DNA of 64,000 bases from Sphaerolaimus hirsutus. Its lineage: Eukaryota > Nematoda > Chromadorea > Monhysterida > Sphaerolaimidae. A program made the position numbers and the translations under genes. The first letter of the stretch is position 1. Every line of letters starts with the position of its first letter. The notes beneath the pieces are model-generated. The model searched no databases, was not told the DNA's origin, and saw only the letters and a list, made by a program, of their open reading frames with translations. Below, in pieces: positions 21,641 through 64,000 of this stretch. Location: the NCBI GenBank assembly GCA_964036195.1, contig OZ038451.1:22275927-22339926 (forward strand). Reading direction: 5' to 3'.

Positions 21641-21730
21641 ATTAATGAACTACAACTCAACACTGGTCGCTTTGAAAAAAACCGACCCGATGGGTTATTG
21701 GAAACGGTGGATGAGTTCAAACTATCTCCA

Positions 21731-44270: not shown

Positions 44271-44605
44271 ACCCTGTTATGATGCGACAGTCATTGTTTT
44301 TAACATATACTCGGCGAACATGATACTCTACCACCGCAAATATTTATGTACCTTTTTATCAAAATAAAATATTTAAGTCAAATTGAAAACTTTAAGGACG
44401 GACCTTTCACAAAAAAAAGAAAGAAATGAATAGATTTGCCGGTATGCCGGCCGACCCTACTATTTTCAAGTAAATATGTCGCGTTTCCGGAGCCAGAAAT
44501 ATCGCTATTTATCTTCAGCGGAAATTATCGCAGGACGAAACATTTAGAAAATGGCCTTTAGAATCAGGAAATATTCCGTTCCGACTACGCATCGAACCCG
44601 CGCAT

Positions 44606-44987
44606 CACAAAGCAGAATACCAGAGCCTTTTAACCTATGGGCAAATTCTAAGTATTTGGAGACTTATGTCCCCCCAAAACGGACATATTCCGGACATTTG
44701 TATAGTAAAAGTGGAACAAGTGAGGTGTTAACCCATTTGGGTTACGGTACTTAGTATACAAAAAGGGTGACATCACTATTTCCGGAAAGTGTCCAAGGAT
44801 CAAGTGTATCCATTACCTAAAATGGTTTGAAAAATGGTCTGGAGTGGAAAAATTTGAAAAATGTCTGAAGTAACACCTCATTTGTATCAAAATGTCCGGA
44901 AAAGGTCCGCATTTGGTGGGAATGTCTCCAGTGTGGCTTAGAATTTGCCCATAGGTTAAAAGGCTCTTGTAGGGGCTTGGATTTGTG
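44606..44987. mobile_element. Foldback MITE, AGAGCCTTTTAACC ends
   Basis: 'agagccttttaacctatggg' and 'cccataggttaaaaggctct' are exact inverted copies, extended inward by 'aaattctaag' / 'cttagaattt' and 'gaggtgttaa' / 'taacacctc'. Confidence 0.75.
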
Positions 44988-45353
44988 ATATTTGTGATAT
45001 TTATGGTGTTTGTTGTATAGAATGTTACAACTGATTCTGACTATGACTGTTGTCTGTATACATACATATGTATACATAGTGTCTAACTAGGTACTGTCGG
45101 CATGATCAAAGGAAGGATGTTTATGCATCAGTGCACAGCATGAATGGGTCTGTCATCTATCTTTATGTGTGTGCATTGATGTGTGAAGGTGTATGTCTGG
45201 AATGTGTCTGGAATGTGTCTGGAATGTGCATTTTATTTGTATATATAGTGGAGCTTTGATTAGATTTTTCATTGGTATCTTCAGGCTTTTATCTCATAAG
45301 TTAGAACAGTATAAAATCAACAGTAGGCTATGAATATCATCACATTAGAATTT

Positions 45354-46496
45354 CTACCTAATGTGAACATCATTATCCATATCAGCACAAATTGTGGATG
45401 CATGCACTACAATGTCAGCATCAATATTGCGTATTTTATTGCAGAAGTGGAATTGTTCTTGTACCATCCTGGTTTTTGGACTAAGTGTAGTATCATATTT
45501 AAAGTGAAAGTGAAACTTATGCTTGAGTTGCACTGGCAATCCTCGACTAATGCTAAGTACACCATCTTTCCAGCTTATGAGAGGACTACCCATCTGATTG
45601 AAATAGTGTATATTAGTATGAATGTAAACAATGAGGCTACATACCTTACTTTTAGCAATTATCTCAGCCAATTGATTGGAATATAGGCACATATGAATCA
45701 ATGGTCTTACCAGCATAAAGTTTGTACAGTAAAGTGACAAAATCAACTGATCGGGCTGCAACTGATCAAGAATAGTGTTTAAATATGCAAAAGTATGATC
45801 AAAGGCATGTTTTGTTGTATTGCCAACTGCATAGACTGCCAATTCACACATTTTTTTCTTACTAGCAAAGATAGGCCATAGTTTTTGCATATAAAGAGTA
45901 CAATTCTCTAGCATCTCATCTCTCACAATGAAACAAACTCTATTGATGTTATGGCACCATTTAATCATATTCATTACATGTAGTGGTATGTCATCACCAT
46001 ACTTGATGTGGACTTTAAAGCTATCGGTACTACCACTACCGAAGTAATTGATAAGCAGTTGTGATTCACCATAAGAAGTAAGTGTTCTTGTTTGAAATTC
46101 AATGAGTGTTATCATCTTATTTCTCATGATATTTATAGTGTGATTGCTATCTAATAGAAAAATCATTTTCTGTTGTATGTAGAATTCGATGCTGGTCTCA
46201 TGAGCTCTTTTATTTGTGGCTACATTTTTGATCATTTCTAGTGCATAGCCTAGTGGCATATAGGCTAGGATAGCTGCCCCAACTTCCAATGGCACTCCTT
46301 TCTTGAAGTATTGCATGATGTTGAGCAGCCACATGTATTCATCCTGTTGAAAAGTATGTCGATTATTACTAGTAAAAAGATAAGAACGTGACAGTCAATA
46401 AAAAATTACTTCTTTAATATATACTCGTTTGCCTTGAATAACTTGTAGCACTGCAGGTGACAATCTACTATAGTAGGTTTCCTGTATATTAGCCAT
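45354..46496 (-). CDS. F-box-like protein of the element, two exons
   Basis: Exon 1 is 46496-46425 (24 codons, MANIQETYYSRLSPAVL...), exon 2 is 46343-45354; the 81-bp intron is GT-AG and phase 0, giving about 353 residues. Residues near 40-60 (GVPLEVGAAILAYMPLGYAL) resemble the LPxEI-x-IL-x-YLP pattern of an F-box, the module that links a target to an SCF ubiquitin ligase. The rest is unrecognised, mildly hydrophobic, with scattered Cys and His. It is the only minus-strand gene of the element and is divergently arranged with the gene at 46503. An F-box protein would be unusual cargo for a Polinton; the similarity is suggestive only. Confidence 0.6.
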
Positions 46497-46502
46497 AATA
46501 TA
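46497..46502. promoter_or_regulatory. 6-bp gap between divergent start codons
   Basis: The minus-strand ATG (46496-46494) and the plus-strand ATG (46503-46505) are separated only by 'aatata' type sequence, so each transcript's leader must lie within the other gene or translation starts further in on one side. Confidence 0.5.
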
Positions 46503-46994
46503 ATGTCCCTACCCTCTACTTCTGGTACTAATAGGCAAAAACAATTTTTAGCTGGTATTAACAATTCAGCTTCAGCTTCTGGGATTTTATATGATAAAGA
46601 GTTTTTTCAAATATTCAAGCCAATATCACAATATACAAAGAAGTTTAAATTGAGTTTGGATGCATATCGAATAATATTTCGGAACCTTAATAATCATCCA
46701 AATATTGCAACTGTTTTGTCAGAAGCAATTGACTGCACATTCAGGTTATAGTGCCTTGTATTTAAACCATGTTGTCTTTATTGAAAATCAATAGCCCATG
46801 ACGCCTAGCTGTTTCGCTCATGTAGGCACACCATTGGAAATCGCCACCCATCAAGTGTATATGCTGGAATTTCACTACAGCATGAGAACTTACCAGAATG
46901 TTTGTTTTATTCAATAGTGATAATAAATGATGCTAGTTTTAACATTAGATTTTCAAAAGAATTTGTCATGTTTGCTACCATGCAGCATATATAG
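46503..46994 (+). CDS. Small unknown protein of the element, two exons
   Basis: Exon 1 46503-46744 (MSLPSTSGTNRQKQFLAG...) joins exon 2 46826-46994 in phase 2 through an 81-bp GT-AG intron; the product is about 136 residues and stops at TAG 46992. Both exons have amino-acid composition of real coding sequence (LSLDAYRIIFRNL; NLPECLFYSIVIIND). An overlapping frame from 46986 (HFRLGSRFSSIGAAQDIVN) is also open and could be a further exon. No family recognised. It lies just upstream of the polymerase gene. Confidence 0.5.
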
Positions 46995-47176
46995 AACACT
47001 TTCGGCTTGGATCAAGATTCAGCAGTATTGGTGCTGCACAGGATATTGTCAATTTGCTGAATTCTAACCAAACGATTAACTTATCAGATAATTCACTTTA
47101 TTTATTTGTGAATGTAATTGGTTTGTTTATTACACTTCAACTATTTTCCATCAATTATTATCGCTGCTTAAATTTC

Positions 47177-50100
47177 ATGCAGAACGATAGAATGTCTGAT
47201 CAACCAGGTTGTTCACACTACCCAACAAGAACAACAAATGCTATTCAAGTAGATATACCAGTTGATGATAGTGATTCCAATTCAAGTGTAGAAGATTTAA
47301 GTAATTTAAGAGGTTATGGCAGTGTAGGTCGATTAAGTGGTGGTAAGAGACGCTCAGTATACCAGGATGTTACTACAGCCAGGTTACGCCAGGCAATGCT
47401 AAAGAGTCAAAAACGCAAGCACTGTGAGTATGTTGTCGCATCAGAGCAGACACTTGTTTATGCAACATGCCTGGCTGTTGCCAAATTTAGGGCTTTCAAT
47501 CCAAATCGAGGCAAAGAATCAGTTAATTATTGGCGTCGTGTGAGGCGACATTGTGAAAAAAGCCCATCCATTGAGCTTGAAAAACTTGCATGTCAATTGC
47601 GCATCGAGGCCGAGCTACCACCTGCTAACATTTTTGTAGGACTTGACTTTTTAGAGCGAATACAAAGAACACCAATGCTATCTGGTATTTCAATAAGAGT
47701 ATTCAAGGAGGGGACAAAAGAGCAAGTGTGGGGGAAATTTAGGTTTCCCATTGGTAATCATGTAATAAATTTATGCCTATATCATCATGGTGGATATATA
47801 TTTTTCGCAACAATTTGGGGCGTTGTAACATTTCTAAGTGCTAGAGGATACTGTGAAACATGCAAGGAGCTTCAATTTGACCAGAAAAGGTTGGTTGTAA
47901 ATGTTTTTTATTTTGAATTATAAACTGAAAAACTCAACATCCATAATTATAGGCATATCTGTCCATTTCGATGCAACTACTGTGCAATTGTAAGAACAGG
48001 CTCAGTCTTTAGACATACAAGTTCACATGCCGATTGTAAAAAAGTTATTGGTGAAGAAAGAATTTGTCCAGACTGTTTACGAAGGTTTTTTTCAGCACAA
48101 TGCTTTGAGTAAGTATAGCCTTGCCATTCTATTATTACCATTATTATTAATGTAATTGTATATAATGGCAGAGCATATACTTGCAGACAACATCTATATG
48201 TACAAGGGACTGGAAGATGGGGAATGCCAAAATGCTACAGTCAACGTCTTTGTCTGAAATGTGGTCATTATTTTAGTCTTAAGAAAGACAATGGAGTATT
48301 CACAAATATACATAAATGTTCAGAGGAAAGAATTTACATATGCAACATATGTAAACAAAAAGTTCCATATAATGACCCCCATCCAAACTGTTTTTTGCCA
48401 ATTTTGAAGCCAAAAAAGATAGAACGATCAAGATCAATTGTGTTTTTGGATCTGGAGACTAGGATTTGTGAGCAGACTAATCAACACGTGGCAAATTTGC
48501 TAACCACTGTGACGTATGCCTATTTTGAGTTTTACATTTTGCTTAAGCTTGTCATTATAATTTATTGTTACTTTCAGTTCATGTTCTCGTTGCTGGCGTA
48601 AGGATATGTTTGATCCATGTAGTAATCGAAAATGTGGCAAGTCAAGGGTTTCAGTATGGCAAGGTGAAAATTGTACTGAGGAGTTTGTGGAAAACTTTTT
48701 TTCAATGGGTATGTCGTTGTGTAAATTGTACAACTTTGCATATATTTCACATTGTAAATCTTTCAGATAATGTTGATGCAACAATTATCAGTCATTTTGG
48801 AAGTAGATTTGATTTTCAGTTTCTACTATCTGCATTGGCAAGTCAATGTAAAACACCAGAAAAAACATTCACACGTGGAAATAGGATTTTATATGCCAAG
48901 TTTAAGTGTGGCATCAGATTAATTTGCTGGGCAAATTACATACCCACATCACTGGAAAACTTATGCAAATCGTTCAATGTTCCTGTTTCAAAATCGTTAG
49001 TTTATATTATAACTATCAGTTGTAGTTGTACATTTTAACATGATGTTTTTCGCAGATTTTTTTGTTATGATATGAATGAGTTACATGTGCAAGATGCATT
49101 TTGCCATCTGAGACCAATTTGGGAGTTTCCGACGGGTGGAAGAGATACAGCCGCCTTCTCAAAATATCATAAGGAGCACTACGATAAGATATTTCCAGTA
49201 GCACAAGAGATGTCTGTATATTGCCAGAGAGATAGTTTTGCATTGAGTTATGCTGCAATGAGATTTCGCGATGAGCTGATAAAATTAGTGAATGTTGATC
49301 TTTTTGCAGAAACAGGGACTTTTACAATTTCTGGATTGACGCTTAGAGTTTTCCAAAGTATGTTGAGAAGAGAATTTTTCATAATTAGACTTTTCTTATT
49401 TATATATTAATTTACCAATTTCAGCTCAATATTTGCAAGAAAACACTTTGTCCATCTATCGTGGAGAAAGTCTCATTGATCGCAATAGTCGTTTTTGCAT
49501 GGCATTTCTAACTGCTTATGGTAGATATTTTGGTGTGAGTTTTATTTCACTATCACGTTTATCATCTTTATGTGTGGTAGAGATATTACACACTTCATAG
49601 GCCCATATACAACATGCTGGAAACAGTCGAGAAATGACAATAAACTGTGGTTCAAATACGTTTAAGGTGGATGGAGTCGAGTTTGAGCAAAACTCAGATC
49701 AAATTGCCACGCTTATTGACATACATGGATGCTTTTGGCATGCGTGCCCAACATGTACAGCTCACTTACCTGCCACAAAGTTGGGCTCATTTTATCATTT
49801 TTATTCTATTTTATTCAATCAATATATATCACTACAAGTGTTCAATTTGAAGGCAACTCACATTGCTCGGTGGAAAAACACCTTTACAAGTTCGAGAACT
49901 GGACTATTTGCGAGCAAATAAAATTGCAAAGGCAGTCTCGCCCATTCACTATGACATTTATTGGGAGCACGAATGCCGAACAATTTTGAATACCAATAAA
50001 TTGATGAAACAGTTTTTCACAGATGCATTATCAGATAAACCTCTAAATATATATGATGCAAATTTTGGTTGGCTGAGATGAGCTTTTTAAAGGTATATGA

Positions 50101-52010
50101 AAATGGTACCTTTAAAAATTTATCATAATTTATTGTTTTTAGGTGGAAGGATTGACACCTTTCAAATTGGAATGTATGAGAATATGAATGTAAATAAGCC
50201 AAATGCCGATTTTTTGGACTTTTGCAGTCTATATCCAGCTATGTGCTTAATGCGGCCAATGGCACAAGGACATGGTAAAGTGTATTCTGAAGGTGCCATT
50301 CATGGTGATCTCAATGAGTGGATTATGGTAGGTTTTAAAAAGGAAATCGAAATTGCTCAAACATTAAATCTATGACTTAATATTATTGCAGAATAACTTT
50401 GGTGTTGCAAAGGCATGGGTTCATTATCCAAAAAGCGACATTTTTGTACCACCACTACCATATCGTGCCAAGCTACCAAATGGCGATGAAAAGATTTTCT
50501 ACAGTACATGTGCATCTTGCTGTGTTGAACAAAATATGAATGTATGTACTCATACTTTTCAAGAGCAAGTTTTTCGAGGGACATGGACTACCGTATGTTT
50601 TTGAATGAAACTAGCATATATATAAAAACAGTGATAAAAAGAATGTCAAAATACTCAGATTGAATTGAGTGCAGCAATTAGGCATGCTGGCCTAAACGTG
50701 ATACGCATTCTTTCAGCACGCATTTATGAGCCTCGCATATGGACAAAAGAGAGCGGTGTACATTCTGGCTTAATTAGTGCATTCATGTTAGAGTTTTATA
50801 AATTGAAGTGTCAAGCAAGTGGTCAGTCTTCAAAAATTTTCAATGTTATTGAAATGGATAAATGTATATTTTTACAATCACATATTAGATGTGCCGCCAG
50901 ACAAAACTGCAGAGGAATATTCAGATGAAATATTCGAACGCTTTGGCATTAGTATTCCGCCAACATCATTTCATCCAAATCCTGTAAGACGTTCAGTAGC
51001 AAAGCTGATGATCAATTCATTAATTGGAAAGTTTGCACAGAAGAAAGGACATATGAACACTGACTTTTACAAAGACCGTGACAGTCTTCTTCAAATGCTG
51101 GAAAATCCTAATGTGAATGTTCATTGGATGCAGGTGTGTATAAATGAAAAATCTGCATTTATACTCTAGACATTCAATTTCATGAAACATTACAGCATTT
51201 TGGATCAGCTGATGCATCAACATTAGGAAAGGAGTCTGTTGTGATGCTTCAACACTCCATTGAGCAAGAATCTAGTCTAGGGCATGTTGGTCCAAACAAT
51301 GCATTCAGCATGCCAATTATTACAGCTTTAGTAACAGGCTATGCTAGAGTTGAATTATATGAGGCAATGCTAAAGTTACCTGAGGAATCATTACTTTATA
51401 CTGACACGTCTGTTTGTAGATGATGATTGAATATAGTTAACAGTGAAAACAAATTCTCGTTTTAATAGGGACTCAATAATGACACTGGATGGATCACAGT
51501 TGAAGGACCTTTGTGGTCATCACTTGGGGCAATTAACACCTGTTCTAAAGGATCAATATCATTTAGATCATGTCTGCATTGTTGGGGTACGATCCTGACT
51601 TTAACTATTATTTAAATACAGTTGAAAATAAACTACATCATTACATTTTCCAGCCAAAGCAATATGCCTATACAGCTAAGCATTGTAGCACTGGTGAAAC
51701 ATATCGGACTGTACGACTACGGGGTTTTGCAAGTTCTGCAGAGATAGATGATCTAGCCTATGGGAATCGAAAACCTGCTGTGACATATGAGAATATGTGT
51801 GATGCCGTAACTTCATTACTCGAAAATACTCCAATTAAAAAACTTGGAGTCAATGAATTAAACTTTATACTGACAAAGGATTTTAAAGTATGTCTAGATG
51901 GTAGACAAAAGTCATATAAGCCTGTATCAAACAAACGTTTTTTTGTTCCACCAGGTATTGGTGGGGCGAAAGTTGTTCGTTCATATCCATTTGGTTATAA
52001 TCGTTTATAG
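47177..52010 (+). CDS. polB: Protein-primed family-B DNA polymerase (Polinton PolB), 16 exons
   Basis: Replicates the element. Exons: 47177-47889, 47953-48108, 48187-48513, 48578-48708, 48767-48995, 49056-49357, 49425-49534, 49601-49779, 49853-50067, 50143-50327, 50392-50592, 50659-50821, 50889-51133, 51196-51407, 51469-51586, 51654-52010. The sum is 3843 nt, a whole number of codons (1280 aa). Landmarks in order: zinc-binding YCETCKE ... HICPFRCNYC; exonuclease I FLDLET; exonuclease II HFGSRFDFQF; exonuclease III YCQRDS; GCFWHACPTC; polymerase motif A FLDFCSLYP; motif B KLMINSLIGKFA (Tyr of NSxYG replaced by Ile); motif C YTDTDS, interrupted by an intron; then GPKQYAY, also formed across a splice, and an SNKRFF ... 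YPFGY end typical of the family. Start chosen at the ATG before NDRMSDQ; an acceptor-like CATGCAG overlaps it, so an upstream exon is possible. Introns are 58-78 bp. Confidence 0.93.
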
Positions 52011-52137
52011 GATGCCACTGTTTTGTTATTGTTGTTGTTTTTGGTGCATTGTTTCAAATAAAATTTTTTTCAGGTATTGACCTATCTAGCTATCTAAAAA
52101 CACCAAGCTATCAAAATTGATTCTTATTCAATATCAG

Positions 52138-52995
52138 GTGTCCCAGAAAATTTTCCGGCAAGACCAGAAATACCACGAAGACCACTACAATCAATACAGC
52201 TATCAGAGCAAACAAGGACATCGCCAGCATTATCTAGTTCAACATCATCAGCAACTTTAAGTGGCTTTAAATTAGATCCTGTTCGTGTAATCCGAGATAG
52301 TGAATATCAATTATTGATCAACTCGAAAAAACAGCTGGAATATATAAAAAGTTTGTTGTTTTCATCATTTATTTCTATCTCTTTCATACCTATATGTCGT
52401 AGCATTTCTTGCAGAATGTCCACTAATAACCCAAACATTGGCAACTGGAACGGCGATGATGGCGGAATGGTCAATTCCACTCCAGGCACAGATACAGGTG
52501 CAGCAGCAACAGGACCAACAGCAAGAACAACAAGCAAACCTTCCCGAGGTGGACGCGGCGGTAGTGCGGGAAAATCAAATGTCCAGAGAGGCGCTGGACG
52601 GCAGCGAGCAATCAATAGTGGGAAACAAGGAAAACATATGCCCATTGCTTCAGCACCTAGTGATGAATCCGCCCCCCCTGGTACATTCAAATATCAATTC
52701 TTTATTTGACCTTTTTCATTGATTTGCCTCTCCACACTCTCTTCAGAATATCTCAATTTACGGGAGGCCAATGCAATTCAAAAGAAACAACAACAACAAC
52801 AAGGTGAACGTGAAAGTGGTTCCAACTCGTTCGGTCTCATCAACAACAACAACAACAACAACAGTGGTACACACAAAAACAGAGGAGGTGGGAATGAGAA
52901 AACAACAACATCAAAAGGCAGTGGAAATGAGGTTGAAAAAGAACAGGCAAAATGTTTTGAAGAGAGGCGAAAACGAAACAGCGACGACTTCATGA
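52138..52995 (+). CDS. Alternative reading frame across the 52.1-53.0 kb exons
   Basis: Frame b: exon 52138-52352 (residues such as PENFPARPEIPRRPLQSIQL and FKLDPVRVIRDSEYQLL) splices at A|GTTTGT to 52415-52680 and then 52747-52995, staying open through to a TGA/stop at 52995 (about 243 codons). The last two exons are the same DNA that encodes the gene at 52416 in another frame. The upstream start is not found. The 52138 exon looks genuinely coding; the downstream part could instead be an untranslated or chance frame because CAA repeats are open in every frame. Confidence 0.4.
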
Positions 52996-53459
52996 ATGAC
53001 AATTCAGATAATACCAGTGAGCCTGAGCTTGAGTATTGTGGAAGTGATTTACAACTGTTAAAACGAACAAAGCCGAGACGACTTGAATCAGACATCATTG
53101 GATTACCACACACTGATGAGCAGGGTGTAAAACGGCAAAAGATGGAATCCAAAAGTGACTCAAGGAGAAAACAGAATTTGAATGCTGATTGTTCAGAGTG
53201 GAGCCAGGTTGTGGTTATTGCAAGTGATGATGGTGGGGGTGATGCACAATCAGGTGAAGAGGATAGTATGCTCAATGAGGCTTATGATGATGCAATGGCC
53301 CAAAAAGAAAATGTGAAAAAGACAGAAGAGAAAACTGATACAGCAGCAAAAAGAAAGTATGTGGGCCTGACAGAGTTTGAACGTGGAGTACCCCGCATAG
53401 ATGCATATGGACGCGCGTCAACACTTGCACGTGGGTTTTTACACAATCCTAAAGTGTGA
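52416..53459 (+). CDS. Low-complexity RG/Q/N-rich protein of the element
   Basis: Exon 1 52416-52680 and exon 2 52747-53459 join in phase 1 through a 66-bp GT-AG intron; 325 aa. The N-terminus (MSTNNPNIGNWNGDDGG) leads to an RGGRGG box, then poly-Q and poly-N tracts, two basic clusters (KRTKPRRLE, KRQKMESK) and an acidic stretch (GGGDAQSGEEDS). It ends in a better-ordered segment VGLTEFERGVPRIDAYGR. Basic/RG composition suggests nucleic-acid binding, perhaps a core-type virion protein, but that is inference. Ends 8 bp before the next gene's ATG. Confidence 0.55.
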
Positions 53460-53467
53460 TTTACTCA

Positions 53468-54341
53468 ATGAAGTTGACATTATCCTTGCGCGCAGGTGGA
53501 AATCCCGCACTCTTTGAGATCCAATTTTTGAAGAAGGATGTACTCAGTGGCCCTCCATTCCCTCTATTACCACCGAATGGCATCATTATCTGGCTGTGTA
53601 GAACATGTCGCGAGATTTCAAATAGAACAAAGGGGCGGTCTTATTTCAATGGTCGTACTATATTCACAATTGACCTGTGCAAGGTGACTGTTTCCTTTTA
53701 GTCAAATAGTGTTAAAACACTACCGACAAATAATAATTGCATCCATAAATCTTTTTAGCCATGCCGCATAAAAAACTGTGAAGTGCGGGAATGCTTCAAT
53801 GACCAGAATGACAAATATGGGACAATGAAATTGTCAGACATTGAGGAACCACTCAAAAAGTTTCCATATGCAGAGCAGTATAATCAACTAGCTGGTGCTC
53901 CATATAGTTTGACACGTACTGAAGCCTTGGTAATTTTGGCATGTGAACATTGCAGGTACGTAAACTTACTTAACTCCTCACATGGCATACATGGTTTAAA
54001 CAACTTAAACAAACAAACAAATTTGAATCTCAGGACTGTGACAAGCTCTCGCCAATCTACACGTGATGTAAATGGTAGATGCCGAGTATGTTGATTACTA
54101 CAGATTTTATATCACTCACATGCTACACCAATAAATTTAATTCAATGCATTTCAGATAACAATAGATCTATGCCAAAAGTGTACAGATGTGAACTGTGAG
54201 ACATCCATGGCACTACATCCAACACAGGCGGAATTGAATCGATCAAAGGACAAACGAGAATATTTTGCTGGCCAGTCTAATGATGCTAGTGATGGTGGAA
54301 AAAATGTGATACATACACATGGAAAGTGTGTGCGTGATTAA
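53468..54341 (+). CDS. Cys-rich protein with duplicated zinc-ribbon-like module
   Basis: Four exons, 53468-53683, 53759-53955, 54034-54085, 54156-54341, join with matching phases (216 aa); introns 70-78 bp. Two similar modules follow one another. Module 1: WLCRTCRE ... GRSYFNGRTIFTIDLCKPC ... NCE. Module 2: LACEHCRTV ... DVNGRCRVITIDLCQKC ... NCE. Each has two CxxC pairs about 25-30 residues apart plus a trailing Cys, the layout of a zinc ribbon. Between them is a Lys/Tyr-rich linker with YAEQYNQLAGAPYSLTRTEA. I do not recognise it as a known Polinton gene; nucleic-acid or protein binding is plausible. It lies between the RG-rich gene and the ATPase, same strand. Confidence 0.62.
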
Positions 54342-54565
54342 ACATGATGACTACTACTCATGGGTATATATACATCTGATTTGTATAAGGTGCTTTTCAG
54401 TTAGGCATTTTCACTTTAATGTTATTGACCTTTTTTCACTTGTTTTTGTTTCTTGTTTTTGTTATATATGCTGTCGATTTTGTTTGCAAGGTCAAGTTGA
54501 AATAAAAAAACAAAAAGAAAACATGCAGATCATCTGAGAATAATAATAAAAATAAAGTGCCACAA

Positions 54566-55969
54566 CATGCAAAGATTACACCACTCATTTCCAATGCTAA
54601 TCTTTGGATCCTCAGATATAAATTTATGCAAATGCTTATTTTCACAAAATAAAATGAAAGGTATATTTGAAGGTTTTTTCACTTCACATAGACATAATCA
54701 TTATTATACTTGTGAACGTTCATTTGCATAAATTTTCATGTTCTGGAAAGACTACACTATTAATTGAGCTAATAAAAAATCGGCAGCTAGTTTATGACCG
54801 CCCCCCAGACCACTGCCTTTTTCTTTTTAGTTATTGGCAAGAAAAATATTTAGACTTGAAATCCTGTGCTGAGTTTGGACGGATTGAAGACTTTTGCGAC
54901 TCCTGGCGCACGGTGGTTAAATATAAAGAAGATTTGGATGAGCGATCTAACACAAAAAATTCACACTTATTACTCGTCTTGGATGATCTTTCAGCAAGTG
55001 TTGCATCATCCATTGAAGTTGATGACACTGAAGGCTCAGGAGAGGGAAAAGGTCGTTCTTTAAGCACCAGTAATCCAACACGTTTGCTGCGTGACTTGGC
55101 ACAGGGCGCCGCCCGTCATCATAACATATCTCTTGTCGCAACATTACAAAGTTTATTTGACACCCAGGTGGGTTATCATTATTATATGTATATATCTACC
55201 TGCCAAGTAATTAATTAATTAATTAATTAGTCAATCAATTACAGAATTTGAAGCAGAGTCGTAGTTCAAGCGTCTATTTCATCTTATTCAGGTTGGTTAA
55301 TAACAAAACTTCATATACCGTTTTCAGCATTGAAACTTTTATATTCTACATTTCAGTTTCCCATCTGATGCATTGACCACAAAATCCTTTGCACAACGTT
55401 GGCAAGACCCGGCATTGTTCATTGGGGCATATAAGCAGGCTATTTCGGATAAGAATTTCGGATATTTATTTGCAAATTCTGATCCGTCCATTCCTGACGA
55501 TTTGAGGCTATCAAATTCGCTCTTTCCCTGGGACAAAGAACGTGTTTTCTACCAGTGGGAGAAGCTATCTAGTGACATTGGTCAGGAGGATAGTGTCAAC
55601 AATTTGGACAAAAAAGAGAAGTCAACCACTGGGACCGAAGAAAGACAAAAGGATCGGCCAAGATTTGCTCCATTATCAAGGCGTGCACATAAACTTGGTC
55701 GTAGAGTTGTTGCAGTCCCTGCAGATACAGCGATAGAGCGTGTCTGTGATTCTGATGAGTCATTTCGAAAGGACATTTGTGCAGCTGGTGGCCCATTGAA
55801 AGCAAAGTGGTCAAACTTGAGACGTAAACAGCATCAACAGCAATTAAAGCATCAATCAAGCAAGGAGAACAATGGCCAGTCCCATGAAAGATGGACATTC
55901 CAAGACAATCCACCCTACACAACAACCGCAATTGGCGCAGCCAAACAGGCCACAGCAAGAAGACCATAG
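54566..55969 (+). CDS. FtsK/A32-type DNA-packaging ATPase
   Basis: Motor that pumps element DNA into capsids. Exon 1 runs from about 54566 (MQRLHHSFPMLIFGSS) to 54615; exon 2 54740-55167; exon 3 55245-55291; exon 4 55357-55969. Walker A is split between exon 1 and exon 2 (SGKTT at the start of exon 2); the separating 124 bp lacks GT-AG ends (see 54616-54739). Then PPDHCLFLFSYWQEKY, Walker B HLLLVLDD, the arginine/sensor region LLRDLAQGAARHHNISLVAT, LQSLF, VYFILF, FAQRW and FGYLF, all in the order seen in Polinton ATPases. The C-terminal about 100 residues after YQWEKL are low-complexity, and the last 98 nt overlap the next gene. If the 124 bp is not removed the P-loop is broken. Confidence 0.86.
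54616..54739. other. 124-bp insert with inverted ends inside the ATPase P-loop
   Basis: ATATAAATTTATGCAAATG at the left and CATTTGCATAAATTTTCAT at the right pair over 17 of 19 positions. Removing the segment joins the two halves of Walker A in frame, but the borders are AT...AT rather than GT...AG (a one- or two-base shift is possible and still not canonical). Either a non-canonical intron or a small transposon insertion. Confidence 0.6.
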
Positions 55970-56339
55970 TGGTGAACAAAAATCCAATACAATTAGGCGT
56001 AGAAAAAGTACAAGTAGATTGACTCGTAATTGGCTAGTATTAGAAAAGCTGGCACACTCTCAATCTGTGAAAGAACGCCGTAATTTGATAAGCACTATTT
56101 CAGAGGATGCTTTACGTTGTTTACAAGATGTTGTTGCAAATTTAATGTCTGGTGTAATACAAATAAGCCAAAAACAAAAGAAAATCCTTAGACGTTATAG
56201 GCATAAATTTATGTCTGTTTTGTCTGGCAATATGCTTGAAAATTCTTTACGTCGTACACTATTAACTTTATGCAATGGTCAAGGACTTGTGAGTCTGCTT
56301 AAAGCATTTTTGTCGCGCTATACACATCCCACACGTTAA
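55872..56339 (+). CDS. Small conserved Polinton-type protein
   Basis: Intronless frame of 155 aa overlapping the ATPase tail by 98 nt in another frame. After a basic, Gln/Pro-rich N-terminus, residues from about 52 (NWLVLEKLAHSQSVKERRNL) form a helical region with LMSGVIQISQKQKKILRRYR and a C-terminal LLTLCNGQGLVSLLKAFL. This pattern (leu-rich helix, 'N-x-L-x-G-x-I-x-[IL]-[ST]', then KYR/RYR and a Gly-Phe/Leu-rich end) matches a small ORF I know from many Polintons, usually next to the capsid genes and proposed to be a virion component. Function unproven. Confidence 0.55.
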   Translation: MASPMKDGHSKTIHPTQQPQLAQPNRPQQEDHSGEQKSNTIRRRKSTSRLTRNWLVLEKLAHSQSVKERRNLISTISEDALRCLQDVVANLMSGVIQISQKQKKILRRYRHKFMSVLSGNMLENSLRRTLLTLCNGQGLVSLLKAFLSRYTHPTR

Positions 56340-56566
56340 TTACTTGATGATTCATGCATGTATGTATGTGATTGCATGTAGATACACACTTGTATACATG
56401 ATAATATGAGTATTTCATAGTTTCATTCTAGTTTACGTTTTGTTATTGTTGTTGTTATTGCTGCTGGTTGTTTTTATTGTTTTTGTTTTGTTTCTATCAT
56501 TGGTGATTTTACAGCTATTTTACTCAGTATAATTTACAGAATGAACTTTACAGTATAACTATTTCT

Positions 56567-57817
56567 ATGGCTCATATACCACCAAGTGATAAATGGAAAT
56601 TTGGTGGTCCTGGTGGACTTATAAAAAGTAAACGACTTCGGAATCCACTAGAAGATTCTGTTAAATCTTCACGCATTGAAGCTGCAAACGAATCCAATTT
56701 ATATGCTCAAACTGTGGCAGATAATGAGAGATTAACCCGCTTTCTTCATGGTGCAGCACGAAAATATCGTGGACAACATTTGAAGGAGCTACGTGGGGTT
56801 GTTGATCCATCCATCCCAGCTATACCGCCAGAAGCAATTCTTGAGGAGGCGCATAAGCTTCAGGAAAATATAAAGGACAAAGCTCAAGGTGCACCGGTAC
56901 CACACAGTGCAAGTGCAGTCCCACTACCTTATTCACCATCGCTAATACGTGCTAGTTTTGCTCCAGAGCATCGCCCCACAGTTGACAAGATACTAAAGCA
57001 TTTGGCACCAATTGCATCAGACCTACTAGATTCACTAGGAAGAGTGAAGGTGACCGGAAGCAATCAACCAGGTGCTGATATATTTGATACAGTACATCAC
57101 GCGGTTGTTGGTTCAAGTGGTGAAGAACCACCTACCGCGGCACCTTCTGGATCCGAACAATTCTGGAAAAAGTTTATGGACAGTGTGGACAAAGCAGCAT
57201 CTATAGACAAAGAAAGTGAGACAACTACACTTGGTGGAGGTACGGTTCCAGATTCGACCTTACCACAGCAAACAAAGGAAAGAGACGTGGCGAAGCAGGA
57301 ACCAATTGAAAGCGCATCAACAAGTACCCTCAAATCTGATCAACATCAAAGGGCACCAACAATTGTTATTGATAGCGATCTTGAGGTTGATGGTGATGAG
57401 GAACAGGGTGGACTAGAAGACGAGAAAGTTGAAACGACGGATGAGGACATAACAACTGATGAACAAGCTGTCTTTCAAACACCACCTTCTGGAGCTGTCG
57501 CAGGAGAGCCTAGTGCCAAGAAAAGAAAACGTCATTTATCCACAACCCCGATAGGCAAAAGCCAGCCATCTGCAACAGCAGAGGAGACGGCAGCGGCAGC
57601 TGGACAGTTGGAATCGGGTTCTCGTGGCCGTGGACATGGTCGTGGTCGCCCACGTGGTTCAAGTGCCACCACTCGTGGTGCAAGTGCCAGTGTCCGTGGT
57701 CGTGGAGCAACTATTATTGCGGATAGAAGACATGGGACAAGAAGTGATCCAAATGCCAGAGATGAAGTACCTAAAAATTACACTGAAGTTATGAAAACTC
57801 AGTACGGCCATAAATAA
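56567..57817 (+). CDS. Basic-tailed protein, probable Polinton virion-associated ORF
   Basis: Intronless, 416 aa. N-terminus MAHIPPSDKWKFGG; residues about 125-185 contain EHRPTVDKILKHLAPIASDL and GRVKVTGSNQPGADIFDTVH, resembling a conserved Polinton protein with 'R-x-x-(V/A)-x-x-[IL]L-x-[HY]L' followed by 'G-x-[IV]-x-[IV]-x-G-x(4-6)-G-[SA]-[ND]-I'. A long Ser/Thr/acidic linker follows, then a KKRKRHLS nuclear-localisation-like cluster and several RGRG/GRGRPRG AT-hook-like boxes (about 350-385). The basic tail suggests DNA or capsid-interior contact. Assigned by pattern only. Confidence 0.5.
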   Translation: MAHIPPSDKWKFGGPGGLIKSKRLRNPLEDSVKSSRIEAANESNLYAQTVADNERLTRFLHGAARKYRGQHLKELRGVVDPSIPAIPPEAILEEAHKLQENIKDKAQGAPVPHSASAVPLPYSPSLIRASFAPEHRPTVDKILKHLAPIASDLLDSLGRVKVTGSNQPGADIFDTVHHAVVGSSGEEPPTAAPSGSEQFWKKFMDSVDKAASIDKESETTTLGGGTVPDSTLPQQTKERDVAKQEPIESASTSTLKSDQHQRAPTIVIDSDLEVDGDEEQGGLEDEKVETTDEDITTDEQAVFQTPPSGAVAGEPSAKKRKRHLSTTPIGKSQPSATAEETAAAAGQLESGSRGRGHGRGRPRGSSATTRGASASVRGRGATIIADRRHGTRSDPNARDEVPKNYTEVMKTQYGHK

Positions 57818-57848
57818 TAATATATATATATATACATATATAGAAGAT

Positions 57849-59206
57849 ATGCATAAACAATGGGCCGAAAATGTGGGTGGACCCAAGTGGTTGAGAACAC
57901 AGTACAACCTCCCCACAGAAGCATGGAAACAACATGTATTATTGAATGAACCAGCATACTATTTGAAAGGTCATCCATCCTGGAGACGGGGATTTGAGCG
58001 TCTGCCAATTCTTGTGAGTTTGCTACATTTATTTATTTTTATTATAATTTTAATTATTTAATTTAATTAATTTTCTAGGTTAGTGGACCAGATCGATTTT
58101 GGTCTGTCGATTTGATGGTAATGCCAGAGCGGGATGTACCAGTAAATGACAACCATCGCTATATATTTGTCTGCTGTGATGATTTTACAAATGAAGTCTG
58201 GCTTGAGCCACTTAAACAAAAGACAGGTGTTGAAGTGACACAGGCATTCAAAACTATAATGTCCAGGAATAATGGTCGTGCACCAATGAAGTTACGATCA
58301 GATTTTGATCGCTGCTTCACATCACTGCAATTCCAAAAAACACTCTATGAGGTATGTATTGTTGTTTCAATTCAATTACTGTTTGCACATGCCACATATG
58401 TACAGATAGATGCACATGCACATGCATATACGCAGATAAAGTGCACATTTGCACCAGCAGCTGAGGATGTCACGCGATTGCCAAAACTTGATAGTTTCAT
58501 ACGCAATATTCGAAAGCGCATTGAAATGTATTTCATTGCTGTTGAAGGTCAACAGCAACAACAACAACAACAACAACAGCAGCAGCAGCAGCGCAGATGG
58601 ATTGGTATACTTCCTGCAATTGAAAAGCAGATGAATACCACTCGCACGCGTGCACTATTTGGAGCTGCACCTGTGGAAGTGTCACAACCACAAAGTGCAA
58701 ATGCACATGCATTATTAATTGCCCGTCAGCTGCGGCATAGGCGGAGACGGGCACAGCCAAATACAGTATACACTGGCACTAGCCGAGAGGCGGCTGATTT
58801 GGCGCATGAGCGTCTATCAATGCTCACTGGCTGGGTGCGTCTTTCGAGGCCGCCCCCCAGTCATGGAAATCCAATTAAATTGGTTGCGCGTGAGCGATAC
58901 ACGCGAGAAGTGTTTCCTTTGGGTCGACGGTTTACGCAGCCAAATAAGCCAGATATATATCTCGTACTAGACCCCATGGATGAAAAATTAGAACGATTAC
59001 AAGGCCGCTTCTATAGACAGGAGTTGATTGCAGCTACACAGCCTGAAAGTACAAAGCCACCGCCATTGTTGCGATCAGCATCTCAGTCACAACAACAACA
59101 ACAACAACAGGATCAGGAGGATCAGACATTGTTATTGTCTCTAGAGGAGATTATTCAGCAGCAACAGGAGCAAGGTATTGCACCATCATATAATACTGTA
59201 TGTTAG
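57849..59206 (+). CDS. Retroviral-type (rve) integrase of the Polinton, 3 exons
   Basis: Inserts element DNA into the host genome. Exons 57849-58013, 58079-58351, 58436-59206, phase 0 throughout, 402 aa; the second intron (84 bp) contains no stop, so retention also stays in frame. N-terminus VGGPKWLRTQY ... FERLPI as in Polinton integrases; the core has FWSVDLM (first Asp), FVCCDDFTNEVWLEPLKQK and LRSDFDRCF (second Asp); the third catalytic position, normally Glu in E-R-F-N-R-T-L-K, reads LDSFIRNIRKRI with Asp. Then a poly-Q run, RRWIGILPAIEK and an SH3/chromo-like domain (GWVRLSRP ... YTREVFPLGRRF ... YLVLDP ... GRFYRQELI). Gln-rich C-terminus. A donor-like GTATGT at 59199 could link it to the frames at 59297 and 59604. 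Confidence 0.9.
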
Positions 59207-59296
59207 TATGTATGTATGTATCAGCATGTACATGGATATAATATTGATTTTTTCATTTGGATTTTTACTATTTTTTGTATTTTATAATCATTCCAG

Positions 59297-59459
59297 GGCG
59301 CGCGCCGCGTAAAGAGCGACGCCTGCGGCGCCGCAGCCCCGGCGAACCGCGTACAGAGGACCCGCCCCAAGCGTTCAGCGGTACGTTTTCGGATCGCCCC
59401 CGGAGGGGGCGGTCCGCAAACGTGCTGTCTGACGCTGCGCCAAATGGTACACACTGATA
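59297..59459 (+). other. GC-rich island, possible exon
   Basis: Very GC- and CpG-rich DNA abruptly bounded by AT-rich sequence, preceded by an acceptor TTCCAG and containing a donor-like G|GTACGT. All frames are open on both strands. It may be an exon extending the integrase or an insertion of host-type DNA. Confidence 0.35.
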
Positions 59460-59470
59460 TACACCATCAT

Positions 59471-59471
<1 letters not shown>

Positions 59472-59518
<47 letters not shown>
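59472..59518. repeat. (TG)n microsatellite
   Basis: About 22 uninterrupted GT dinucleotides, followed by an imperfect CACA-rich stretch to 59598. Confidence 0.95.
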
Positions 59519-59519
<1 letters not shown>

Positions 59520-59601
59520 CTGTATACACATACACGCATACACACTGGCACACACACGCATAAAAAACCATATACACACATACACACACACATACGTGCA
59601 G

Positions 59602-59834
59602 ATGTGGCGGCTCAAACTCACACGCCTACGCCTGCAGCTGGCATTCGTACAGCTGCAGTTAACCCGATTACTCATACAACAACGGAGGCATCATCACCTG
59701 CAGCATCACTACCAGATGAGAATGTCATTCGGGGGGCAGGCAGCAGAACAAGAAATAAGAAAAGAAATAGAGAGAAAAGTACAAATCGAGATGGTCCCTC
59801 ACGATATGCACTACGCCCGCGCAATAAGACATAG
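59602..59834 (+). CDS. Possible terminal exon, basic Thr/Ala-rich
   Basis: After acceptor CGTGCAG, the frame starting at 59604 reads VAAQTHTPTPAAGIRTAAVN then a basic tail (TRNKKRNREKSTNRDGPSRY) ending LRPRNKT and TAG. It could be an alternative C-terminus of the integrase or a separate small gene; a second frame is also open, so the assignment is weak. Confidence 0.35.
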
Positions 59835-59886
59835 CCACAATGCATGTTGTACATGATGCTAAAATGATGACTATTGATACTATATA

Positions 59887-59946
59887 TATGTATGCATGTA
59901 TGCATGTATGTATGTATGTATGTATGTATGTATGTATGTATGTATG
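59887..59946. repeat. (ATGT)n microsatellite
   Basis: Tandem ATGC/ATGT tetranucleotides, about 14 copies, between the possible integrase tail and the next gene. Confidence 0.95.
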
Positions 59947-60202
59947 CTAATTGTTATGGTGAATCACCATGTATATTGCTGTCTGCCTCTATATATAAAA
60001 GAGACTTAAAACATGTATTCAATTCATTATTAGGAATGTATGTTTACATTTTTAATAGATTGATAAATAACAGTAACAATAGTGGTAGGTGGCATCTTTC
60101 TCTTATTATTATTATTATTATTGTTGCTGTTTTAATTACACTGTTATCATTATTAGCATAGCTGGAACAACTTCTTCGAGTGACTACAATAAATTTCAAA
60201 TT

Positions 60203-61449
60203 ATGCGACAAATTGTCTATCTTAGCTCCGACCGACAGTGGAATGAAAGAACATCTGCGCCAAACTTTTTTGCCAAGTTTCCAGCACGCCCACTTTCTCA
60301 AGAGTATCAACAACAACAACAATTACAACAACAGGAACAGGAACAGCACCGTGAGTCGTTATAAACTTGGAGTGATAGGTGGACACATTTTGCGTCTGAC
60401 ACGTGTACCACTACCATTACAGGCCCATCAGAAACAGCCACATCAATCATTGCAAAACCGTTCCCAATCGATGACGGTAGTACTGTTGTTTTGGAAGAAA
60501 CATTTACACGCTGTGCAGACTTACAAAATCGTGCCGACTATATTAGTCTTGTAGAGCTGGAATTGTGGGGTTCCCCGGTATTTGAAGGCAAAGATTCAGC
60601 ACCTGCATTTATTGTCTTTGATTGTGCTGGTACACTGACTTGGTGTCAAGTTGACATATCAAGTGTACTCTCATTTCCAAACAACAGTTCAGAGGAGTGG
60701 GCAAAAGTTGTAGAGAGAGAAATTAATGCAATCTTACACGGTGATGAGAGATTGAGTAAATTTGGCAGTCAGTTGAAGGAATTAGACCAGTCAACTGCAA
60801 TTCTGTTATCCCGACTGGAACCAGGATTCTTTACTTGGCTACAAAATGGTGCGAACAAGAACAAAAGCAAAAGGGACACTGAGAAACAAGCTAGGAGTAA
60901 TGAGCCTACAACAACCAAAAACAACAGACAGGAAAACAAAGACTCAGCCATTTCTGCCAAAAATGAGTCAAACACTGGACATGTCGAATCCAAATCTATT
61001 GACAAGCCCATCGCCAATGACAATAATGTCACCAACGTCAACATTGGGGGGAAGCAGGCAGAAAAAGAAGCACACAGGCAATGGGCTAAGAAAGGTGAAG
61101 GAAATACAGCAGCAACGGAAAAAGCCAGCATTAACAACAGGGGCGGGCCGAATGAATCGACGTATTTGTCCTCTGAGAAACGAGGCAGTCGGGAGCACAT
61201 CGAAGCTAGCACACTTCACAACATGGAAGTATCCACGGCCGAGGAACAATCTACGGATGGCAAAGTTACAACAATCAGCGGGACCACAGCTGCAGCAGAA
61301 AAAGACATCACAGCCAGTCAATCAGGTGGTGACAACGGCGAATATAACAGCGGGAACGAGTGGAATGGGCGCTGGAGCGACGGGAAAGACACAACCATGA
61401 ATGACAGTGAAAATGAGGACAATGTCAACATTGTTGACAATGATGCTGG

Positions 61450-61480
<31 letters not shown>

Positions 61481-62690
61481 AATGTCAGCAGCCTTGACAC
61501 AGAGAATGGCAGTGATGCGGGCCACGATGAAATCGATGCAGATTTTGATGTGGTTGGTGGTGATGATAATGACAATTTTAGTAATGCAAGTATAATTACT
61601 CTACCACGAACACCACCAACACCAAAAAGAAATACGTCCCACATTTTTCAGAATGAGCATACCAGGATGCTACTAAGGTATAAACGGCAACTCAAGCCGA
61701 GAGAGATGTATCGTATCAAAAAGAGACAAATTCAAGATCGCCCACCCAGCCCACAAATGAACATTGACTTGAGTGAGGAAAGGTTGAACAGAGGACTTGG
61801 CAAAATCAAACAAATTCTCAAAATGAATGCATATAAAATGCCGGATGAATGGATATCAAATGTAACTACATCAACGCTTGACTACTGGCTGCTGAAAAAG
61901 TTGAAAGAAACATTAATAATGCATGTCAGAATGTCAATAAGTGATGCAGCAATAGTTGTTGCGGATATGGCATTGGAGAGCAGTCCATTGACTGGAGATG
62001 CAGCACGCACAAATGCATTGGCGTTTGAATCAAGTGCAGAAACGCCATCTTTGATTGGTGTACGGCGTTTTGCAATCAAAAATCCAGATACAAATCTTGT
62101 CACCAGAATGTATATGAGTGAAAATCTGGCAGCGGAATTGGGATTTGTCACTGTGACATCAGGTGGCAATGTTCCAGCTAATCAGATTGACTGGCATGAT
62201 TCAAGCAATGTTCAATATGGCTTTAACAGCAAGACAAGTCGTGTTTATGCAACGGTACCACATCAACTGGAACTTCGCCGCCGTGTTCAAGTGCGGTGTG
62301 ATAGTGTTGAACCAATGTGTGCAGTGTTTCAATCAGAGGAAAAACCACTCCTAGCTGTTTTTTCATGGAAGCCATCGCTTCATACTCCCGATAGCGGTGC
62401 CAATGCTTGGATGGGCTCACGCCGAGTTTATGTCTACGAGCCACAAATGCCACACTTTGTACAGCTAAAACAAGTATGTTTTTTATGCCATTGCTTTTTT
62501 CTAGTGCAGCATACATTTACCTACATTTATTATTGCATTATAGATGCCAACTAGCGGCTGCGAAAGAGGGCTAAAGTTGACGCTGTACAATCACTGGGGG
62601 AAGCCATTCCGCGTCAACGGGCTTGTTTTTGCACGCTGTGCCCTGACTGGTTCAAATGAAGGTGGCACTGCTGATACAAACTGGATATAA
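60203..62690 (+). CDS. Minor-capsid (penton)-like protein with a large acidic insert, 3 exons
   Basis: Exons 60203-60350, 60423-62473 and 62544-62690 total 2346 nt (781 aa) with exact phase. The N-terminus MRQIVYLSSDRQWNERTSAP followed by FFAKFPARPL resembles the 'YVxLxSN...NTxxxFxxxLxxPL' start of Polinton minor capsid proteins; ISLVELELWG matches the following strand. The last two exons (RRRVQVRCDSVEP, then RRVYVYEPQMPHFVQL, LKLTLYNHWGKPFRVNGLVF) match the C-terminal jelly-roll strands of that family. Residues about 195-400 are an Asn/Lys/Glu/Asp-rich insert including ten consecutive Asp codons. The family is usually about half this length. The insert would probably be surface-exposed or disordered. 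Assignment by fold pattern, no search run. Confidence 0.68.
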
Positions 62691-62840
62691 TAATCTCCAT
62701 AGTCTTTCATTGTTAACATGTTTTTATAGGCTGCCACCATTGTTGTTACTACTGTTATTATTGTTATTTTGCAATCTTTTTCAATGTATTTCTCATGTTA
62801 TTTTAATATGATCCCCCAAATACTATCCAATGTATTTGCA

Positions 62841-63407
62841 GTAACATCTAGCACCTACGAGACTTATTACCATTCAAAGCTGGCGACAAGAGGGCGATAC
62901 TGTGGCCGATCAAACTTTCTATCATCGGCAGGCCACCAGATTACTAGCTGTAATTCTTACTTACAATTTGCCCCTCGTGGTACTCACTGGTTTGATAATA
63001 TGGCCAATGTTCCAGACGGTATTTTTACCAAAGAATATTGGGCACAACAATTCAATCAAAACATTGGCGATTTAGAGTCTACAAATAGAGACAAATGGTC
63101 AAGCGCAATGCTCTCTGAGTTGTCATCTCAAAAGTTGATAACTCCAGGCCCCCAGGATAAATCTGATGTGAACCTTCAACAGCAGCAAGAGCAATTTCAG
63201 AAAGAAACTGGTGAACCTGCAGCTCCAGCTGGTGATTTACATTCACAAAGACCACCGACAACAACAAATGTCAAGAAAAGTGGGGGTAAAAATAAACAAG
63301 GACCTATTCAATTAGTGCAACCGCCACAAGGTCGTAATTGTAATAAGTCTGCAACAACATCTACTGCAAATACTGCTGGAATAACTGTTTCTACTGAGTG
63401 GCTGTAG
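62841..63407 (+). CDS. Unknown element protein, Gln/Pro-rich tail
   Basis: Frame open from an acceptor-like TTTGCAG at 62834-62840 (or from ATG 62811) to a stop at 63405-63407. The first part (YETYYHSKLATRGRYCGRSN then FLSSAGHQ) has the spacing of the 'Y-x-x-GxxxQRGxGxGxxF' start of a small Polinton membrane-active/virion protein, but the match is loose. The middle contains WFDNMANVPDGIFTKEYWAQ; the tail is Gln/Thr/Lys-rich. Placed between the penton-like gene and the putative major capsid gene. Confidence 0.45.
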   Translation, partial: VTSSTYETYYHSKLATRGRYCGRSNFLSSAGHQITSCNSYLQFAPRGTHWFDNMANVPDGIFTKEYWAQQFNQNIGDLESTNRDKWSSAMLSELSSQKLITPGPQDKSDVNLQQQQEQFQKETGEPAAPAGDLHSQRPPTTTNVKKSGGKNKQGPIQLVQPPQGRNCNKSATTSTANTAGITVSTEWL

Positions 63408-63749
63408 TTTATGATTGTTCATGTGAAAAATATACAGTCAAATTGAGTGTGGCATCATGGTTTTAATTAGCATTCTTAAACTTATGTTTTTATGTCTTTT
63501 AGTAAAGAGCTGTTTTGTAACGTTTTTTTATTTTGCATGTTTTATTCTTTTGTTTTTGTTACACCGTTTGTTGTTTTGATGTGTTGATCATGAAGTGCAA
63601 ATGAACCACTAGAAAGTTTGAAATTATGTGCTACAGCATGTTTGTATGTGATTGTGGAAATCACATTCACTAAATATTTAAGTCTCCCTTCATTCTAGAG
63701 CTTGTATGACAGAATGACAGGTTATTTACAGTGACGAGGAAAAGATAGA
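63408..63749. other. Intergenic, no gene seen
   Basis: AT-rich spacer between two element genes; likely holds a 3' end and the next promoter, but no specific signal is defined. Confidence 0.4.
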
Positions 63750-64000
63750 ATGGCCTCTAATCATCCAGCTCGCATACTTAGCCCAAGAAAACAATTGCTG
63801 GATAGTGGATCTCATCTGTTACCGTGTCCACCAGAGTTTCGCCCCGGTAAAGCTTAAATGTCATTAAAATGTAAATGACATATATTTTTTTATAAATGCA
63901 TACATGCAGATGCATTGCCACCAACTCAAGCATATGTAAGCCATTGTGAAAGAGAGCAACTTCTACTAATTAGTGATGGAAGTGAGACATCGCCATGTAA
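63750..64000 (+). CDS. Possible start of the major capsid protein gene, truncated by window
   Basis: Exon 1 63750-63846 (MASNHPARILSPRKQLLDSG...) and exon 2 from 63910, joined in phase 1 across a 63-bp GT-AG intron, continue open to the window edge. Just after the junction comes ALPPTQAYV, which resembles the PPTQ(T/S)(S/A)(V/I) motif near the N-terminus of Polinton double jelly-roll capsid proteins. Position fits: capsid genes are commonly adjacent. Only about 60 residues are visible, so the assignment rests on one motif and context. Confidence 0.42.

Follow-up and report, generated by a model that had tools for sequence, protein, structure and literature searches.

An intron-rich Polinton-type element predicted in the genome of the nematode Sphaerolaimus hirsutus

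Can a DNA element that carries its own polymerase and integrase spread through a genome while its genes are broken up by introns? The question is raised by a stretch of 64,000 nucleotides from the nematode Sphaerolaimus hirsutus (assembly GCA_964036195.1, contig OZ038451.1, positions 22,275,927 to 22,339,926, forward strand), here called the window, in which an earlier note had described a Polinton- or adintovirus-like element with genes for a family B DNA polymerase (PolB), a packaging ATPase, an integrase and a penton-like protein in one block, all extensively spliced. From the sequence of this locus and its relatives in the same genome, we consider it very probable that the element is of Polinton type, that its PolB gene holds 15 short GT-AG introns with the reading frame kept in most of 20 aligned copies, and that its proteins are predicted to arise only after splicing by the host. 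The same comparison speaks for intronization of a mobile Polinton lineage. The proposed gene block holds in part: PolB and the rve-type integrase are recognized by Pfam, while the ATPase and the penton-like protein are assigned by motif reading and gene order.

The element measures 36,669 bp and extends from window position 44,611 to the window-equivalent position 81,279, beyond the window limit of 64,000, so that the extent of 45,300 to 64,000 given earlier was too short; that block is just the left half, and the right half lies in L009 and L010. The left terminal inverted repeat (TIR; 44611..44990, plus strand) begins with AGCAG, occurs in further copies elsewhere in the genome and is matched by a right arm on the other strand (L010:6901-7279), the two arms being 99.475% identical across 381 aligned bp (44,610-44,990 versus inverted L010:6901-7280). 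TIRs of Polinton/Maverick elements start with 5'-AG, and the start AGCAG is common to the window, the copy on C9 and four copies of a related family (family B below). The left end is preceded by the 6-bp target-site duplication TCACAA (44605..44610, unstranded), which is repeated immediately past the right end (L010:7280-7285).

Such TIRs and duplications had been named as features to be sought, and perfect 6-bp duplications were found in 6/6 copies with both ends retrieved: TCACAA (window), CAGTGT (C9 copy), AGCAGT, GAGAGC, CTCTGC and AGTCTC. The element on C9, the second complete one, is 36,467 bp long, and the 381-bp repeat also occurs as five more convergent pairs spaced about 36.5-37 kb apart. 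The block is thus not a mosaic of fragments without common ends, the outcome that the earlier note had set against its own proposal, since TIR pairs 36-37 kb apart are shared by several loci. Two other readings of the ends were discarded. The inverted repeat at 44.6-45.0 kb is not an unrelated miniature inverted-repeat transposable element (MITE), because the same 381 bp closes the right end and the pairs recur at element spacing; a 4-bp duplication was rejected because the C9 copy sets the repeat start at 44,611, hence 6 bp. Two pairs of terminal repeats are spaced more widely (C578:29740/82111, 52 kb; C1:29502302/29596184, 94 kb), enclose spliced PolB and are perhaps elements with nested insertions. 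MITE-like fold-backs of ~270-380 bp built from the terminal repeat were seen at C6:20937975-20938260, C3:17208724-17209009, C4:4556719-4556988 and C13:603929-604308.

The PolB gene (47177..52010, plus strand) is predicted in 16 exon pieces on the basis of Pfam matches, similarity to intron-free PolBs, the 20-copy alignment and the frame sum. The exons between the ATG at 47177 and the stop add up to 3,840 coding bases, a multiple of three, although a start further upstream is possible (5' region 46.5-47.2 kb). Four pieces match Pfam DNA_pol_B_2 (PF03175) in collinear profile order: 48769-48996 (profile 10-83; E 2.1e-4), 49039-49407 (136-192; E 0.019), 50142-50327 (228-261; E 0.0034) and 50807-51166 (368-410; E 2.1e-6), of which only the last exceeds the family cut-off. 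The family was matched by 3/7 PolB pieces in a first Pfam run and by 2/10 trimmed pieces in a second, in which 49057-49356, trimmed from 49039-49407, had no Pfam match. Piece 50807-51166 is also matched by a PHROG DNA polymerase (E 5.4e-4), and a PDB sequence search with PolB returned no polymerase.

The earlier note had counted at least 25 short introns. At each of 28 junctions, we enumerated every frame-compatible GT-AG pair of 45-100 bp and found between 1 and 10 pairs, with at least one at 28/28. The best pairs have G at donor position +5 in 24/28 cases against 9.3 expected (standard deviation 2.4, maximum 19; best-of-n random GT..AG pairs of the region, 5,000 simulations), and GT at +5/+6 in 20/28 against 4.3 expected (maximum 12; same simulations). 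Chance occurrence of GT-AG frames was rejected on the +5 G excess. As finally placed, the 27 plus-strand introns are 58-84 bp long. In two cases the placement departs from the best splice score: a zinc-ribbon gene intron was set at 52681-52746 on copy support, though the score favored 52660-52746, and the second integrase intron was placed by eye at 58352-58435, though the score favored 58352-58405. The GC content of PolB introns is 0.261 compared with 0.383 in the exons (p = 2.3e-6). The introns are not mutually similar introner copies; matches between them are short, the longest exact one being 13 bp.

Further copies, which had been proposed as a check, are numerous: the spliced PolB stretch occurs at no fewer than 32 loci of the 348-Mb host genome, the window included, a lower bound given by scoring the best 32 of 116 candidates. 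By DNA identity to the window PolB, they were grouped into five families: A (the window and C9, 97%), B (10 loci, 76%), C (6 loci, 73-74%), D (8 loci, 72-75%) and E (6 loci, 67-69%). We aligned the PolB introns of 20 of the 32 loci (2 A, 6 B, 3 C, 3 D and 6 E), which gives 300 cells for 15 introns, a cell being counted as present if it holds at least 30 bases. Introns are present in 289/300 cells, with GT..AG at the aligned columns in 285/289 and G at +5 in 256/289.

Position by position, seven plus-strand introns were found in 20/20 copies without further remark: J3 (48514..48577), J4 (48709..48766), J6 (49358..49424), J9 (50068..50142), J10 (50328..50391), J12 (50822..50888) and J13 (51134..51195). 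Equally complete on the same strand are J1 (47890..47952; GT..AG in 17), J2 (48109..48186; GT..AG in 20, alternative acceptor 48171 possible), J7 (49535..49600; GT..AG in 19) and J8 (49780..49852), which has the weakest splice consensus of the window, yet GT..AG in 20/20 copies. The remaining plus-strand introns are J5 (48996..49055; 14/20), exactly absent in six family-E copies; J11 (50593..50658; 17/20), exactly absent in the three aligned family-D copies; J14 (51408..51468; 19/20), missing solely in the decayed copy L048; and J15 (51587..51653; 19/20), truncated solely in L048. J14 lies within what we take to be a polymerase active-site motif.

Exons and introns of these copies diverge in the manner of coding and non-coding sequence. 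Intron lengths range from 44 to 92 among copies, and every intron spans all three residue classes; in 15/20 copies, by contrast, all exons differ in length by multiples of three only. Identity between the window and a family-B copy is 0.81 in exons versus 0.52 in introns, and 0.70 versus 0.47 for family E. PolB differences at codon positions 1/2/3 number 8/4/62 between the window and the C9 copy and 163/93/470 between the window and a family-B copy, and 14/20 copies have no stop in any PolB exon piece.

Two introns differ between families in an informative way. J5 is absent without footprint in 6/6 family-E copies and J11 in 3/3 aligned family-D copies; at 8/8 family-D loci, the PolB match breaks precisely at J11, with zero bases between the flanking matches. 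In a FastTree topology, D and E group together (support 0.993), and C joins D + E (0.998). With J5 missing exactly in E, J11 exactly in D, and D grouped with E, the tree calls for one precise loss or more wherever its root lies, unless the same site gained an intron twice. The simplest account of such a loss would be that a spliced mRNA was copied back into DNA, a route of exact intron loss that is described in the available text of PMC3652778.

A second gene offers a comparison within the element itself. The duplicated zinc ribbon noticed earlier is real: a plus-strand gene at 52416..54341 contains two tandem zinc-ribbon-like units, as indicated by a paralogue test and by the copies. Its predicted introns lie at 52681-52746, 53431-53495, 53684-53758, 53956-54033 and 54086-54155, and a further plus-strand intron directly precedes the ATG (52351-52414). 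In the three copies compared, one on C9 and two of family B, all six have GT..AG. With the predicted introns removed, the pieces of unit 2 align on unit 1 with scores of 22, 10 and 47; slides of 1-5 residues all fall below zero for the two downstream pieces, and the total was matched by 0/5,000 shuffles. Two introns interrupt unit 2 at places where unit 1 runs on, and one interrupts unit 1 where unit 2 does, so the three intra-unit introns are not at shared positions.

The search for intron-free relatives, also proposed earlier, led to a far-diverged cohort in the same genome. Many Polinton PolBs are present there as single open frames, mostly of about 1,500 amino acids (at least 142 matches; best 70 of 391 candidates); the cohort loci are L001-L008, L011-L012 and L014-L015, with an open frame of 1,478 amino acids in L012 that is cut at the locus edge. 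Two intron-free stretches that were retrieved contain single-frame genes in a row, and the integrase-like open reading frame (ORF) of an intron-free copy has an rve match below the cut-off (E 2.8e-5). Against eight intron-free PolBs, 10/16 window PolB exon pieces match at E up to 1, nine of them in order, with identities of about 15-47% over short stretches; the out-of-order matches are e4 (E 0.39) and one match of e14.

A second comparison scanned all stop-to-stop segments without reference to the predicted introns. Here, similarity to an intron-free PolB ends at 48,996 (E 8.1e-7), which is the predicted donor of J5, and weaker similarities end at 48,109 (E 0.087) and 50,069 (E 0.3-0.49), at or adjoining two further predicted donors; the scan also gave weak out-of-order and minus-strand matches (E 0.41-0.67). 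The cohort shares with the element mostly collinear PolB matches, an rve match and genes in one block, and differs by its single open frames. Intron-rich and intron-free Polintons thus coexist in one genome as far-diverged cohorts. At one cohort locus, next to the intron-free PolB, a block of three open frames is tandemly duplicated, both copies opening with the same residues (L014:1355-2977 and 4407-6029).

Beyond PolB and the zinc-ribbon gene, the window holds several further genes of the element. On the minus strand, a gene of two exons (45354..46496) has an intron at 46344-46409, whose ends are conserved on C9 and at two family-B loci; the description of this gene as F-box-like found no backing, as 45357-46394 matched 0 Pfam families. 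A plus-strand ORF that precedes PolB starts head to head with it, the two start codons being only 6 bases apart (46494-46505). The candidate packaging ATPase (54567..55969, plus strand; introns 55168-55244 and 55292-55356) is proposed from motif reading, gene order and splice pairs; 54733-55167 and the surrounding ORF had no Pfam or PDB match, and the pieces tried had no PHROG match. Its 3' end is overlapped in another frame by an unspliced, basic core-like ORF (55872..56339, plus strand), for which profile comparison gave no informative match and a protein search no homologue. The ORF list adds two unspliced plus-strand ORFs without assigned function, at 56567..57817 and 62808..63407.

The integrase gene (57849..59206, plus strand) has predicted introns at 58014-58078 and 58352-58435, by splice pairs, and an rve core: piece 58079-59203 matches PF00665 above the cut-off (E 9.1e-9), and a PDB sequence search gave a best match of only E 0.39. 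The acceptor of its second intron is uncertain, and a spliced tail reaching 59834 is possible. The penton-like candidate (60203..62690, plus strand; introns 60351-60422 and 62474-62543) is based on motif reading, gene order and splice pairs; it had no noteworthy Pfam match, the pieces tried gave no informative PHROG or PDB match, and an AlphaFold2 model of one piece, built without an alignment, was uninformative (predicted local distance difference test score 32.7).

At the window edge, the 5' end of a spliced gene (63750..64000, plus strand; intron 63847-63909, by splice pair) continues into L009 with a capsid candidate (L009:57-842) in the right half of the element. Against a small custom set, in which chance matches had E values of 0.11-0.22, its part L009:57-350 weakly matched an intron-free copy's 483-amino-acid ORF (19% identity, E 0.005), and that ORF had no Pfam match. 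The right half also holds minus-strand open frames of unassigned function and, near its end, a protease candidate picked out by eye (L010:6217-6471; 0 Pfam families). Rfam and tRNA scans returned nothing informative.

How, then, would such an element move and be expressed? Because of its gene content, TIRs and target duplications, we infer a DNA route, in which the element would rely on its own polymerase for copying and on its own rve integrase for insertion; with both steps at the DNA level, introns would travel along and escape purging. Transcription would take place in the host nucleus, and the host spliceosome would process the messages. Splicing, dependence on the spliceosome and current activity are what the sequences lead us to infer, and virion formation is possible, given weakly identified capsid-side genes. 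In the wider picture, toward which we lean modestly, this is a self-replicating, integrating and intron-rich DNA-virus lineage that expresses its replication and capsid genes through the host spliceosome, whose spliced messages at times alter its own DNA by removing single introns, and whose families in one genome preserve a history of introns gained and lost, next to the intron-free cohort.

Several points weigh against this reading. The claim that every junction restores frame breaks down in the ATPase 5' region: the apparent Walker A halves lie in different frames (54567-54760), the DNA between them is bounded by perfectly matching 15-nt inverted arms (54620-54634, 54721-54735), and the sole frame-compatible GT-AG pair there, of 31 bp, fails to join them. 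The split in the window copy may be a non-canonical intron, reflect a different start or be a disabling insertion. By eye, the third catalytic residue of the integrase is Asp. Thus, of the proposal that the lineage was intronized while apparently intact, intronization stands across 20 copies, but the intactness of the window copy is doubtful in its ATPase and integrase. Among the 20 PolB copies, six carry 1-5 in-frame stops each within their exon pieces (L037, L040, L044, L045, L048 and L049), and exon length changes that are not multiples of three occur in L037 (two exons), L041 (one, at a trimmed 5' end), L045 (one), L048 (four) and L049 (three); in 4/289 intron cells, GT or AG is missing from the aligned columns. 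The middle zinc-ribbon piece is weak alone (rank 2 of 52 offsets; 114/5,000 shuffles). For PolB, the copies compared came from 20 of 32 loci; for the zinc-ribbon and 'F-box' genes, they were the window and three others, and the ATPase, integrase and penton introns come from the window alone. Profile searches did not confirm the ATPase, penton, capsid and protease candidates, and no homologue beyond this genome was found in protein searches with the integrase, the core-like ORF and a PolB exon, in IMG/VR scans or by phage tblastn.

These weaknesses invite other explanations. GT and AG are common, each junction offers up to ten frame-compatible pairs and some copies are decayed, so the interruptions could be random insertions or indels in decaying pseudogenes with GT-AG frames arising by chance. 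We find this scarcely credible: intron positions are common to five families at about 67-76% DNA identity to the window, exon changes fall mostly on third codon positions, most copies lack stops in their exon pieces, and the excess of G at donor +5 exceeds the simulated maximum. Introns could also mark viral genes co-opted by the host and no longer parts of a mobile element; in the available text of PMC10675990, spliced transcripts from viral regions of Cymbomonas were read as inserted host genes or as viral genes under domestication. Here, however, the spliced PolB sits within TIR-bounded elements with 6-bp duplications at every copy retrieved with both ends, at 32 loci and in near-identical copies within families, and such movement is unexpected of co-opted genes, which makes domestication very unlikely.

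Somewhat less remote, though still improbable, is an old intron-bearing lineage propagated only in trans with the help of intron-free Polintons. The large cohort with long open frames in the same genome and the doubtful ATPase and integrase details of the window copy would fit such help. The PolB changes between families are nevertheless mostly at third codon positions, which would be unexpected had replication been supplied in trans, and the PolB exon pieces resemble the intron-free cohort only at the low identities given above.

By its ends, PolB and integrase, we assign the element to the Polintons, among which its introns and size would make it a new variant. Adintoviruses are a group defined by PolB and an rve-type integrase, two features that the element shares. 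With Polinton/Maverick elements, it shares a DNA_pol_B_2 PolB, an rve integrase, TIRs, 6-bp duplications and further genes on one strand. It differs in length, 36.7 kb against 15-20 kb in the accessible part of PMC4028283, a descriptive and not a defining feature, and in its 15 PolB introns: intact vertebrate elements are intronless according to the available text of PMC8097293, which describes the ORFs of 134 of them as intronless and states, in line with Kapitonov and Jurka 2006, that there are 'no introns'; this is a reported property and not a criterion.

Endogenous polinton-like viruses of protists are integrated and multi-copy like our element and differ in introns: the available text of PMC10120064 states that they 'do not contain introns', with S. 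strix as an exception, and gene prediction there relied on that, the large survey having used a prokaryote/virus gene finder because introns were held to be absent. Where introns are named for protist polinton-like viruses, in the accessible part of PMC12220804, they are group I introns, and the terms 'intron' and 'exon' are both absent from PMC4642659. In PMC4028283, capsid genes are split in 13/72 Polintons, with no cause given in its section 4; spliced members may therefore sit unrecognized in such sets. A literature search that left most subscription papers outside its reach found no intron-rich Polinton.

A spliced Polinton lineage would escape surveys that rely on intron-free gene finding. 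If splicing is required, the element would propagate only through a nucleus able to splice its introns. With about 32 copies in five families and an intron-free cohort in one genome, the system amounts to a natural experiment for testing directly how a replicating DNA element gains and loses introns, the terminal repeats making insertions datable and intron presence or absence being clean.

Outside the element, the window contains a minus-strand host gene (20901-26414) with a PX domain (E 1.1e-7) and a WH2 motif (2e-6), presumably PXK; kinase-like pieces between the two had no Pfam match. The gene is spread over 5.5 kb, and its introns appear longer than the element's 58-84 bp. A repeat with a core like TACCGTATTACCTCGAAATACCCCCC occurs in many copies and both orientations at 9.1-10.0, 16.5-17.1, 27.3-27.8, 32.5-32.9 and 39.8-40.0 kb, and two fold-back elements with long inverted repeats and short spacers lie at 30359-31392 (500-nt arms, 91%) and 40200-40823 (308-nt arms, 97%).

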